From NCBI GenBank assembly GCA_025356475.1, contig JANXSX010000088.1, positions 1-64,000 on the forward strand: a stretch of DNA of 64,000 nt. Direction: 5' to 3'. The translations under genes were made by a program, and so were the position numbers. A model generated the notes under the pieces. It was not told where the DNA came from. It searched no databases and saw only the letters and a program-made list of their open reading frames with translations. This DNA is from Isosphaeraceae bacterium. GTDB taxonomy: Bacteria; Planctomycetota; Planctomycetia; Isosphaerales; Isosphaeraceae. This document shows positions 32,605 through 46,694 of the stretch, piece by piece (the first letter of the stretch is position 1; each line of letters begins with the position of its first letter).

Positions 32605-32687
32605 GCCGAAGTGGCGGAATGGCAGACGCGCCGGACTCAAAATCCGGTGGGGTAATACCCGTGTGGGTTCGAGTCCCACCTTCGGTA
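32605..32687 (+). tRNA. tRNA-Leu (CAA)
   Basis: The sequence folds into a full cloverleaf with the long variable arm expected for leucine: acceptor strands GCCGAAG/CTTCGGT (one G-U end pair), D arm with GG, anticodon stem CCGGA/TCCGG with loop CTCAAAA giving anticodon CAA, and T arm GTGGG-TTCGAGT-CCCAC. No CCA is encoded. Its last 68 bases and the next 3 bases recur exactly 14,004 bp to the right, which marks this gene as an integration site. Confidence 0.93.
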
Positions 32688-32690
32688 CTA
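32620..32690 (+). repeat. 71-bp direct repeat, left copy (att site)
   Basis: These 71 bp cover the tRNA-Leu gene from the D arm to just past its 3' end and are identical to 46624-46694. Such a repeat of a tRNA 3' part is the usual footprint of tyrosine-recombinase integration. The left copy belongs to the intact tRNA. Confidence 0.9.
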
Positions 32691-32712
32691 AGGACTTACG
32701 GCGAATCGTCGG

Positions 32713-32751
32713 GCCCGTTACCATGACGTTGGTAACATTTTGGTAACGGGC
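32713..32751. repeat. TGGTAAC repeat cluster / inverted repeat next to att
   Basis: GCCCGTTACCA (32713-32723) is a perfect inverted match of TGGTAACGGGC (32741-32751). Inside lies another direct TGGTAAC (32730-32736), so three heptamers occur within 39 bp, two of them spaced by 11 bp. A similar pair with the same spacing occurs at 46489-46506 near the right end. This looks like arm-type binding sites of an integrase or excisionase. Confidence 0.6.
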
Positions 32752-32785
32752 TCCTCGTGACGTTGCCCTCTGAAAAAGGGCACAG

Positions 32786-32926
32786 ATGGCCGCACTCCAA
32801 CTGCGAGATGGCAGCTACCGCCTGCTTTTTCGCTATCACTGCAAACAGTATTCGTTCCCCATTGGTAAGGTCTCGAAGGAAGAGGCTGAGGCCGATGGAT
32901 TGCGCGTCAATCATCCGAGCCGTTGA
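32786..32926 (+). pseudogene. Truncated integrase, N-terminal fragment
   Basis: A 46-codon frame starts at the ATG at 32786. It reads AALQLRDGSYRLLFRYH followed by a KQYSFPIGKVSKEEAEA stretch. This resembles the N-terminal arm-binding domain of planctomycete phage-type integrases (a strand pattern of DGSYRxxFRYxGKQ, then KVSKEEAEA). It then loses the similarity and stops at 32924-32926; the catalytic domain is missing. It sits about 100 bp from the tRNA-Leu att site, where an integrase gene is expected. I infer a relic of the enzyme that inserted the island. Confidence 0.6.
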
Positions 32927-32928
32927 CG

Positions 32929-32988
32929 CCCGATTTCTGGATCGACAACGAGCCATAGCCAGCCGCTGACCTGCTCCCCGATTTCTGG
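32929..32988. repeat. Short direct repeat CCCGATTTCTGG
   Basis: The 12-mer occurs at 32929-32940 and again at 32977-32988, right after the integrase remnant. It may mark the deletion or insertion scar that cut the integrase gene. The rest up to 33176 holds no gene. Confidence 0.4.
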
Positions 32989-33176
32989 TCCACCCCAAAT
33001 GGAAGGCCCATCAACGTTTGTCCGTATGCGGTTTTGCAATCTTCGAAGGAAACCCCAGAAAGTATCGCGGAGAACACAGGTCAAAACATGCTTTGCGTTG
33101 AACTGTGTCTACCGCATAACGAGTTACGCGAGGGTTCACATGGAAACCGAATTTGCACTTCAGCTCTAATAACGAG

Positions 33177-33764
33177 CTAGTGTTTCTTGAAATTGCCACT
33201 GTACAGAAACTGGGCCCCGTTCAATGTCGAAGCCCGGGCAGCTTCGATGGCGTTTGTGGCTGTCAATGTGTAGAGAGTGGCCGAAGCGTTATTAAGAGGA
33301 ATGGCCTTGGGGATCGCGTCACTATTGTTACTTGTGAGAATTGATTGCAGGCTGGACGACGTGCTGCCGTTGATTCGTCGAGACAAGAACGCCTGGAGCG
33401 TCACCGTGCTCGGTCCGAAGTGTCCTGCTTGAAGTTGGGATAGGCTTCCTGGCAAGCGGGTCATCACGTGAATGAGTTCTTGAGTCAAGAGGCTAACTCT
33501 TTGCTTAGTGAACGCGACCATGCTGTTCCGATTCGCGGAAGTCCCGGAAGCAAAGTACGCCGACTGCGCTTGCAGATAATCGGTTGTAAAACGATCGAAA
33601 GTAGTGTTGATCTGGTCGACGACTGTCTGCCTCGCCGGCAAGATCGCAGCGCCGCGATTGTGTCCGCCGACAAACACGGTTGAAGGGGTGCCTAGCGAAG
33701 CGAGCAATGCTCGTGATTCCAGAACGCTTAAGCTCTCTGGGCGAAATCTCCGCTTGTCATCCAT
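33177..33764 (-). CDS. Hypothetical exported planctomycete protein
   Basis: The product has 195 residues from the ATG at 33764, which has AGGAG 8 bases upstream. The N-terminus RRFRPESLSVLESRALLAS is the LExRxLLA motif shared by many planctomycete surface proteins, where it precedes the mature part and probably directs export. The remainder is Ser/Thr/Ala-rich and mostly helical (QTVVDQINTTFDRFTTDYL, LTQELIHVMTRLPGSLSQL). No enzyme motif is visible. It is the only minus-strand gene of the island, and its start region faces the Ig-repeat gene. Confidence 0.7.
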   Translation of the reverse strand: MDDKRRFRPESLSVLESRALLASLGTPSTVFVGGHNRGAAILPARQTVVDQINTTFDRFTTDYLQAQSAYFASGTSANRNSMVAFTKQRVSLLTQELIHVMTRLPGSLSQLQAGHFGPSTVTLQAFLSRRINGSTSSSLQSILTSNNSDAIPKAIPLNNASATLYTLTATNAIEAARASTLNGAQFLYSGNFKKH

Positions 33765-33949
33765 GACCCAATCTCCTGTAAGACGCAACAGCTTCGTGCC
33801 GCTCAATCCTATCACGCAGGTCCTCTGTCGGCACCCAGCCGTCGCGAGAGACCTCCGCGTCTAGATGGAGATATCGGAAATGGGAGTGAGCGACTTCATC
33901 GACTCTTGCTCAATTTAATTCGTCACAAACGCGAAACGCGCACATGTGG

Positions 33950-45366: not shown

Positions 45367-45402
45367 TCTAACGTGAACCCGACCAAGGAGGGAAGGGACG
45401 CC

Positions 45403-46167
45403 ATGCTCCGATCTACGTTCACGAAGACTCTGGCTACGGGCTCATTCTTGATGGCGATGGTCACCCTAGCACTTGGTGGCGATCACCATAAGGCGGTCCC
45501 GGTACCTCCGGCGCTTGAAATCGAAGTCCTCGATCCCGCTGCCGATCCGGTCGGAAATCCCGCTGTTGAGACGAGGCTCGGACCAGATGGTCGAATGACA
45601 ATCGAGATTCCCAAACTCGTCCTGGTTCATCGATACTACTACACTGGTGATCGATCCTTTCAGTTTCGGTTGATTCCAGGCGGGCCCGTCGTCCTTGTCG
45701 TCGACCATCCTCGCACAGGGGAACGCCTCTACGTTGAAACGACATTGCCGCCGGGGGCGCCTCGGGTCAATTATACAAGTGAGTCAATTCAGTATGATTA
45801 TGGTAATCAAAGCGTGACGCTGTTGTTCCCAAAACACGGATCACCGAAGGTTGCCTTTCGACACAGTAGTGAAAAGTCTTCGGTCGAGCGTCGCGTCGAT
45901 CGCGAACTCAAACTTGCAACAACAAATGCAGAGCCGAAGCGCAAGTTCGGCGAGTCCCTGCGCAAAGCTGCGACCTCAACTTCCAAGGGTGTGCATTCTC
46001 TGAGCACAGTTGTGACGAAACCCATTGCCGCAGCCATCAAGGCGACCCCGTTAGGAAACCTTCGGAGTACTCCTGAACGAGATGCAACTAAGGCACGGAA
46101 CACTCTTGCTGATAAAGCTGCGAAGGAGGCCTCCACAGTCAACGCAACCATCCCGAGCGAGCTTTGA
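45403..46167 (+). CDS. Exported hypothetical protein with basic C-terminus
   Basis: The product has 254 residues from the ATG at 45403, preceded by AAGGAGG about 11 bases upstream. Signal peptide MLRSTFTKTLATGSFLMAMV, cleaved near residue 24. Residues 30-140 form a beta domain (MTIEIPKLVLVHRYYYTGDR, FQFRLIPGGPVVLVV). From about 150 the chain is basic and Ala/Thr/Lys-rich (ERRVDRELKLATTNAE, KAATSTSKGVHSLS), possibly disordered. I know no family. It is the last cargo gene of the island. Confidence 0.65.
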   Translation: MLRSTFTKTLATGSFLMAMVTLALGGDHHKAVPVPPALEIEVLDPAADPVGNPAVETRLGPDGRMTIEIPKLVLVHRYYYTGDRSFQFRLIPGGPVVLVVDHPRTGERLYVETTLPPGAPRVNYTSESIQYDYGNQSVTLLFPKHGSPKVAFRHSSEKSSVERRVDRELKLATTNAEPKRKFGESLRKAATSTSKGVHSLSTVVTKPIAAAIKATPLGNLRSTPERDATKARNTLADKAAKEASTVNATIPSEL

Positions 46168-46210
46168 CCTGAGGCGCGACGACGGCCATTTGCACGAACC
46201 CGTGGCATAA

Positions 46211-46352
46211 TCAGGTCAGATCGACCATCGATCTTACTATTGCCGCGATGCCTGCTTGGAGATCTCGCGTCAACATAGGCAAAGCTTTGACAATCATTGA
46301 CAAGTTGGGATCATCGATGGATTGCCCGAGAATCAGGGCACCATGCACAAAA
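46211..46352 (-). pseudogene. Possible integrase C-terminal tail fragment
   Basis: On the minus strand the last 45 or so codons before the stop at 46211 read NFVHGALILGQSIDDPNLSM, then IVKALPMLTRDLQAGIAAIV. This resembles the tail often attached to planctomycete integrases (a DPxLxxVVxAWPxLPxxxxAGIVAMV pattern). The frame continues through the tRNA-Ser fragment only as antisense. It could be a relic of a second integrase next to the tRNA-Ser att site. The match is short and made by eye. Confidence 0.4.
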
Positions 46353-46401
46353 TTAGATTCCGCAAGTGCTTTGCTAATAAGGGCTTGCGAATTTTGTGCG
46401 T

Positions 46402-46461
46402 CGGTCTTGAAAACCGGCGAACCGGTCTCCTCTTCCGTGGGTTTGAATCCCACCTCTTTCG
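46402..46461 (+). pseudogene. tRNA-Ser (UGA) 3' fragment
   Basis: The anticodon arm (TCGGT-CTTGAAA-ACCGG, anticodon TGA), a variable region, a perfect T arm (GTGGG at 46437-46441, CCCAC at 46449-46453) and the acceptor 3' strand CTCTTTC with the Ser discriminator G (46461) are present. No matching 5' acceptor strand or D arm precedes it. This is the 3' half of a tRNA-Ser, the part typically carried or duplicated by an integrating element. Confidence 0.75.
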
Positions 46462-46488
46462 CGAGTTTGTCATGACTAGTCAATGGAC

Positions 46489-46506
46489 TGGTAACACTTT
46501 GGTAAC
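46489..46506 (+). repeat. TGGTAAC direct repeat near right end
   Basis: Two TGGTAAC heptamers (46489-46495 and 46500-46506) stand 11 bp apart, 28 bp after the tRNA-Ser fragment. The pair has the same spacing and nearly the same intervening bases as the pair after tRNA-Leu (32730-32747). They are likely arm-type sites of related integrases. Confidence 0.55.
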
Positions 46507-46623
46507 AGCGTTGGCCTTTCCACTCCAATTTGAGTCCAATGTGAGTTCAGATGGTCTCGGACGTAACCCCAGTAACAACAAGTATCTGCAACGTATTGCC
46601 AACGTGAGCGAGATGCCAAGTCT

Positions 46624-46694
46624 TGGCAGACGCGCCGGACTCAAAATCCGGTGGGGTAATACCCGTGTGGGTTCGAGTCCCACCTTCGGTACTA
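46624..46694 (+). repeat. 71-bp direct repeat, right copy; displaced tRNA-Leu 3' end
   Basis: This copy is identical to 32620-32690. It lacks the tRNA 5' acceptor strand (GCCGAAG) and part of the D arm, so it is not a working tRNA. It is followed by the tRNA-type terminator at 46700-46725, which suggests this is the original chromosomal 3' end pushed aside by the inserted element. Confidence 0.9.

Follow-up and report, generated by a model that had tools for sequence, protein, structure and literature searches.

The 14-kb island described here, in a window of 64,000 nucleotides (the whole stretch of Isosphaeraceae bacterium DNA that was analysed), is very probably the decayed, CIME-like remnant of a planctomycete tRNA-Leu integrative element, a reading to which we give a probability of about 0.93. 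Integration at the 3' part of a tRNA gene had been proposed by a sequence-only reading of the same DNA, and is now borne out by an integrase stub lying in its proper place, a pair of motifs that the genome has nowhere else, and intact relatives whose att architecture is the same.

Target tRNA gene and ends of the island

ARAGORN and Rfam agree on a single intact tRNA in the window, a forward-strand tRNA-Leu(CAA) at 32605-32688 (RF00005, 60.2 bits), which we regard as the target gene restored by the element and as the left end of the island, attL. A 71-nt direct repeat, the core of attL, begins within this gene at 32620-32690 and recurs on the same strand at 46624-46694, with 100% identity and a spacing of 14,004 bp, exactly as first claimed; since the next-best repeat in the region is 37 nt long at 73% identity, chance is excluded as its origin. 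The left copy was said to complete an intact tRNA-Leu, the right copy to lack the 5' acceptor strand and to be followed by a good terminator, and both statements hold. The right copy, devoid of that strand, yields no tRNA call and aligns in Rfam as a mispaired tRNA under the gathering score, while behind it, at 46694-46740, lies a sequence that forms a strong hairpin with a run of U's after it (-17.6 kcal/mol, z -2.35). We consider this copy to be the displaced 3' part of the tRNA-Leu gene (attR), and 46695-46730, on the forward strand, to be its displaced original terminator, meaning that an intact tRNA and a displaced 3' fragment in the same orientation flank the island. Elsewhere in the 5.9-Mb genome, tRNA-Leu(CAA) is matched best by other Leu isoacceptors, with 84% and 70%, so that the island occupies the sole close copy found. 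The perfect identity of the non-functional right copy to the left one suggests that the insertion is fairly recent or that the repeat was recently homogenized.

Upstream of the tRNA, the window carries two related GTPase genes (27941-29566 and 30979-32436) with an amidase gene between them; the second is of the DUF697 type, and relatives in the family often carry such paralogs close together. In the relatives examined, which are family genomes and none of the same genus, no tRNA was found adjoining the counterparts of tyrS and the GTPase genes, which neighbour the island in the window.

Integrase stub and paired arm-type motifs

A tyrosine integrase stub of 46 codons and a stop lies on the forward strand at 32786-32926, with homology over its first ~41 residues. 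It was detected in a search of 45 family genomes whose query was an intact integrase from genome G008, encoded next to tRNA-Leu(TAA) and itself a PF00589 match (E 8e-19); the stub gave a match (G000:C26:32789-32911) at E 1.3e-5 and 51% identity to residues 1-41 of the query. Its open frame reads MAALQLRDGSYRLLFRYHCKQYSFPIGKVSKEEAEADGLRVNHPSR up to the stop and starts about 56-57 bp past the start of the left motif described below, in the place and orientation expected from intact relatives. Since nothing but this stub, homologous to residues 1-41, was found, the island keeps just the beginning of an integrase, and a full integrase gene is absent from it. No close integrase occurs elsewhere in the genome either, the one weak relative being located on contig C152 (24% identity, E 1.9e-5).

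The motif TGGTAACANTTTGGTAAC has exactly two perfect copies in the 5.9-Mb genome, at 32730 and 46489, on the same strand and just inside both ends of the island; at up to 3 mismatches, 0.02 matches would be expected in the window. The left copy (TGGTAACATTTTGGTAAC, 32730-32747, forward strand) lies about forty bases past the left tRNA, is preceded by an inverted GTTACC and is conserved in relatives, while the right copy (TGGTAACACTTTGGTAAC, 46489-46506, forward strand) is followed by a right arm region (46507-46623, forward strand) that gives the same motif-to-core distance of 135 bp as the other right ends in an alignment of 11. By analogy with lambda-type integrases, the paired motifs are probably arm-type sites of the integrase.

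The association of this motif with tRNA-Leu genes extends well beyond the window. All six sites found in the 45 family genomes at up to one mismatch are at tRNA-Leu genes or displaced tRNA-Leu parts, and 397 genomes of the class contain 30 such sites, whereas the reversed pattern gives 4. As read from the printed sequences, every one of the 14 exact sites in these class genomes is at a tRNA-Leu att site (a clear tRNA-Leu gene or fragment is seen at 12 of them, and a degraded stub beside a conserved right arm at the other 2), as are 8 of the 16 sites with one mismatch. The layout is also fixed among relatives: at left ends the tRNA is followed after 38-76 bp by the motif, with the integrase beginning 46-67 bp from where the motif starts, and at right ends the motif is followed by about 135 bp of partly conserved sequence and then by the tRNA-Leu 3' part. 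As a background control we used 61 stretches of viral contigs with an exact motif, in which neither an integrase relative nor a tRNA-Leu was called; the viral contigs as a whole yielded no integrase relative. One observation counts against the element reading: the most closely related integrases within the family (L066-L084) are without the double GGTAAC motif, so motif and integrase are not matched one to one.

At another locus (L046, G084:C51:5262) an intact tRNA-Leu(CAA) and an exact motif occur with no integrase start behind them, and this is probably another integrase-less remnant of the same tRNA-Leu element family.

Intact relatives of the element

Paired ends on one contig delimit intact elements of ~44 kb in G158 (C70), ~44 kb in G254 (C269) and 121 kb in G008 (C5). 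Their exact core repeats measure 56, 33 and 61 bp, respectively, the 33-bp repeat of G254 lying in a longer match with one mismatch, and start at the anticodon stem, which corresponds to Islander subsite A. Both 44-kb elements have the integrase immediately within the left end and encode a TrwC/MobF relaxase at 13.7-17.7 kb; among the further genes tested are ArdC and methylase/helicase genes in G158 and, in G254, a ParA-like gene. An integrase relative in G041 likewise adjoins a tRNA-Leu(GAG), about 15 kb from a TrwC gene. The 121-kb element of G008 gave no TrwC match, and the integrase module is therefore common to elements of different kinds. Integrase relatives were located at 22 loci of the family, of which 17 adjoin tRNA-Leu genes (TAA, CAA, CAG and GAG) and 3 adjoin tRNA-Gln. 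Plasmid and phage collections returned distant integrases only. A prophage was considered and rejected: no phage genes were recognised in the island, and the intact relatives, for their part, have genes for a relaxase, ArdC and ParA as well as restriction-like ones.

Several features of these loci deserve mention in their own right. Directly past the right end of the 44-kb element of G158 (L136-L138, positions 45236-46300 of the joined stretch) a second integrase-like gene starts, which suggests a tandem hot spot at tRNA-Leu. Within the same element (L137, 8944-18743) an SNF2-like helicase, an N6/N4 methylase and a ResIII-like helicase stand in a row and represent restriction or defence-like cargo. 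At L066, L087 and L094, a tRNA-Ser(TGA) gene lies directly upstream of a tRNA-Leu(TAA) occupied by the same integrase clan.

The cargo operon

Between the stub and the right motif, positions 33177-46167 are filled by six open reading frames. The first, on the reverse strand (33177-33815), encodes a 212-aa protein with a LESRALLAS-type N-terminus, homologs of which occur beside the same operon in G020, G052, G058 and G057. It is followed on the forward strand by genes for a 613-aa surface protein (33986-35827; a weak Ig-like Big_13 match, E 1e-4, below the cut-off), a 675-aa protein with a very weak fn3-like match (35847-37874), a divergent secretin-like giant of 2096 aa (38031-44321), and two further members of the giant-secretin operon, of 281 aa (44521-45366) and 264 aa (45373-46167), the latter exported; homologs were found for the 613-, 675-, 281- and 264-aa proteins as well. 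The claim that all of the cargo encodes exported or surface proteins is plausible on the strength of signal-like N-termini and of the Ig-like and secretin-like parts; on the other side, none of the proteins reaches a curated Pfam cut-off.

The secretin likeness of the giant protein lies in its C-terminal motif region, which resembles PilQ/GspD secretins (PF00263), with a PilQ-like match at residues 1810-1830. Within its family, 22 of 24 aligned members match PF00263 at E values up to 1 (best 7.8e-5), and the protein of the window itself scores 15.9 bits, below the cut-off of 27.5. Unlike PilQ and GspD, it remains under the cut-offs, is giant and has long extra regions, and no T2SS or T4P partner genes were recognised in the island. 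AlphaFold2 models of the secretin region were poor (pLDDT 34 and 43), and a PDB profile search gave no secretin hit. Judged from its sequence, the cargo may encode an outer-membrane secretin system together with surface proteins.

All six genes recur in G020 with their order kept, and G052, G058 and G057 have most of them in another arrangement, in every case at a place without a tRNA. Searched with its C-terminal 597 aa, the large gene is present in 5 of the 45 family genomes. A collection-wide scan added 21 loci, nearly all planctomycete-named and one titled only 'bacterium', most of which have a homolog of the protein encoded at 44521 or 45373 downstream; these added loci include ones in Rhodopirellula baltica and Gemmata. 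The giant-secretin operon is thus patchy across Planctomycetota, usually away from tRNA genes, and is not specific to the element.

Origin of the cargo

Between the cargo and the right motif, positions 46402-46462 (forward strand) contain a second tRNA scar, a tRNA-Ser 3' part that starts at the anticodon stem and is identical at 55 of 61 positions to tRNA-Ser(CGA) of the genome, its closest match, though its anticodon by sequence is TGA. It looks like an older displaced tRNA end. The island may accordingly be a composite, in which a tRNA-Ser element arrived first, bringing the secretin operon with it, and a tRNA-Leu(CAA) element came second; we see this as a possible history, though one that we would not favour. 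The position of the scar and its 90% identity to tRNA-Ser(CGA) speak for it, as does another operon locus (L163): there, too, the operon is followed after about 350 bp by a tRNA-Ser-like 3' part, a hint that a tRNA-Ser element came earlier. Against it, an integrase for tRNA-Ser was not found, and such a scar is present at only 1 of the 27 other operon loci, which is weak and within chance.

The operon could also be native chromosomal DNA that was captured as a mobile element decayed or recombined around it, an explanation that we regard as somewhat less probable still. Many Planctomycetota have the operon with no tRNA, motif or integrase nearby, and the cargo tree is compatible with vertical descent: within the family such descent stays unrejected (p-AU 0.37), transfer being neither shown nor rejected. 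The composition of the block, described as more A/T-rich, bears on the question in both directions. The difference is real, the GC content being 54.6% in the island against 57.1% in the left and 59.4% in the right flank, and GC3 being 0.59 in the cargo genes versus 0.67 outside (Mann-Whitney p 0.0003), but it is modest; as the operon also has a GC content about 2 points lower than its surroundings in G020 and G052, part of the low GC belongs to the operon itself and is weakened as evidence for transfer. What disfavours capture of native DNA is that the operon lies strictly between both att sites, that its GC3 falls below that of the neighbouring genes, and that it is restricted to 5 of the 45 family genomes, four relatives holding it at tRNA-less places. 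Transfer of the cargo together with the element is likely in our view, and we infer that it arrived with it.

Integration model

For the decayed tRNA-Leu element, the following course of events most likely accounts for the present structure. A tyrosine integrase of the clan seen in the intact relatives would have inserted the element into tRNA-Leu(CAA), with a crossover within the tRNA, presumably in the anticodon arm, which is Islander subsite A. The tRNA 3' part of the element would have rebuilt tRNA-Leu(CAA) at the left, the original 3' part and its terminator being displaced to the right end. Later the integrase gene would have been deleted from codon ~42 on, leaving the first ~41 codons, and any transfer genes would have been lost, so that attL, attR, both arm-type motifs and the giant-secretin operon remain. 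The ancestor of the island may well have carried a relaxase; the island itself contains no full relaxase gene, and the window has no PF08751 match. Two TrwC/MobF relaxase genes (PF08751) are located elsewhere in the genome, at G000:C166:16777-17631 and G000:C4:40147-40995, pointing to other mobilizable or conjugative elements there. With no close integrase left in the genome, the island probably stays in place as long as no related element arrives, and a related integrase may be able to mobilise it again; from a decayed element without an integrase, a circular form is not expected unless such an integrase is supplied.

That the element was never decayed, having always been integrase-poor and moving in trans as a satellite-like passenger, seems improbable: the perfectly kept att sites (core 71/71, both motifs exact to the consensus) would suit such a passenger, but the stub is a truncated copy of a full integrase gene, and the genome offers no close integrase, only the weak relative on C152. 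The idea that ordinary recombination partly duplicated the tRNA-Leu gene, without any mobile element, can practically be dismissed. The repeat does consist of tRNA sequence, and a functional integrase is absent, but an 18-bp motif pair unique in the genome is spaced as in intact elements, and the start of an integrase sits in the position that it has in those elements.

Relation to known elements and significance

The remnant of the tRNA-Leu element belongs to a well-known kind, the tRNA-integrated island or CIME. Islander-type islands have an intact tRNA at one end and the displaced 3' part at the other, in the same orientation, and span 2-200 kb (PMC4383910). The window island shares this arrangement, and the anticodon-region boundary (subsite A in its relatives), but differs in having an N-terminal integrase stub alone, and would therefore fail the Islander integrase filter (PMC4383910). 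CIMEs, or cis-mobilizable elements, as characterised in PMC5704250 (citing Pavlovic et al. 2004), have lost their integration and transfer genes and kept attL and attR. Both properties are found here: attL and attR are retained, with the 71/71 core and both motifs intact, and the integration and transfer genes are gone but for the stub. Unlike a CIME, the island was not found beside an intact element. Compared with MobF (TrwC) IMEs, the elements of G158 and G254 share its att architecture and integrase and carry TrwC, whereas the island is without a relaxase.

What appears to be new is the planctomycete integrase/att family and its signature, which is undescribed in the open literature searched: no account of this tRNA-Leu integrase/att family was found among publications on planctomycete integrases, tRNA islands and relaxases. 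Tentatively, and with clear reservations, a broader picture may be drawn of an integrase clan with a conserved att architecture (the TGGTAACANTTTGGTAAC arms at fixed distances) acting on four tRNA-Leu isoacceptor genes (TAA, CAA, CAG and GAG), together with decayed, att-intact islands that would still travel as passengers and carry a surface operon with a giant secretin from one planctomycete to another. Little has been written about the mobile elements of Planctomycetota, and the paired-motif signature makes islands mappable even without an integrase, where standard tools reject them. One integrase clan on four Leu isoacceptor genes, with distant relatives on tRNA-Gln, also provides a comparison set for the change of target tRNA.
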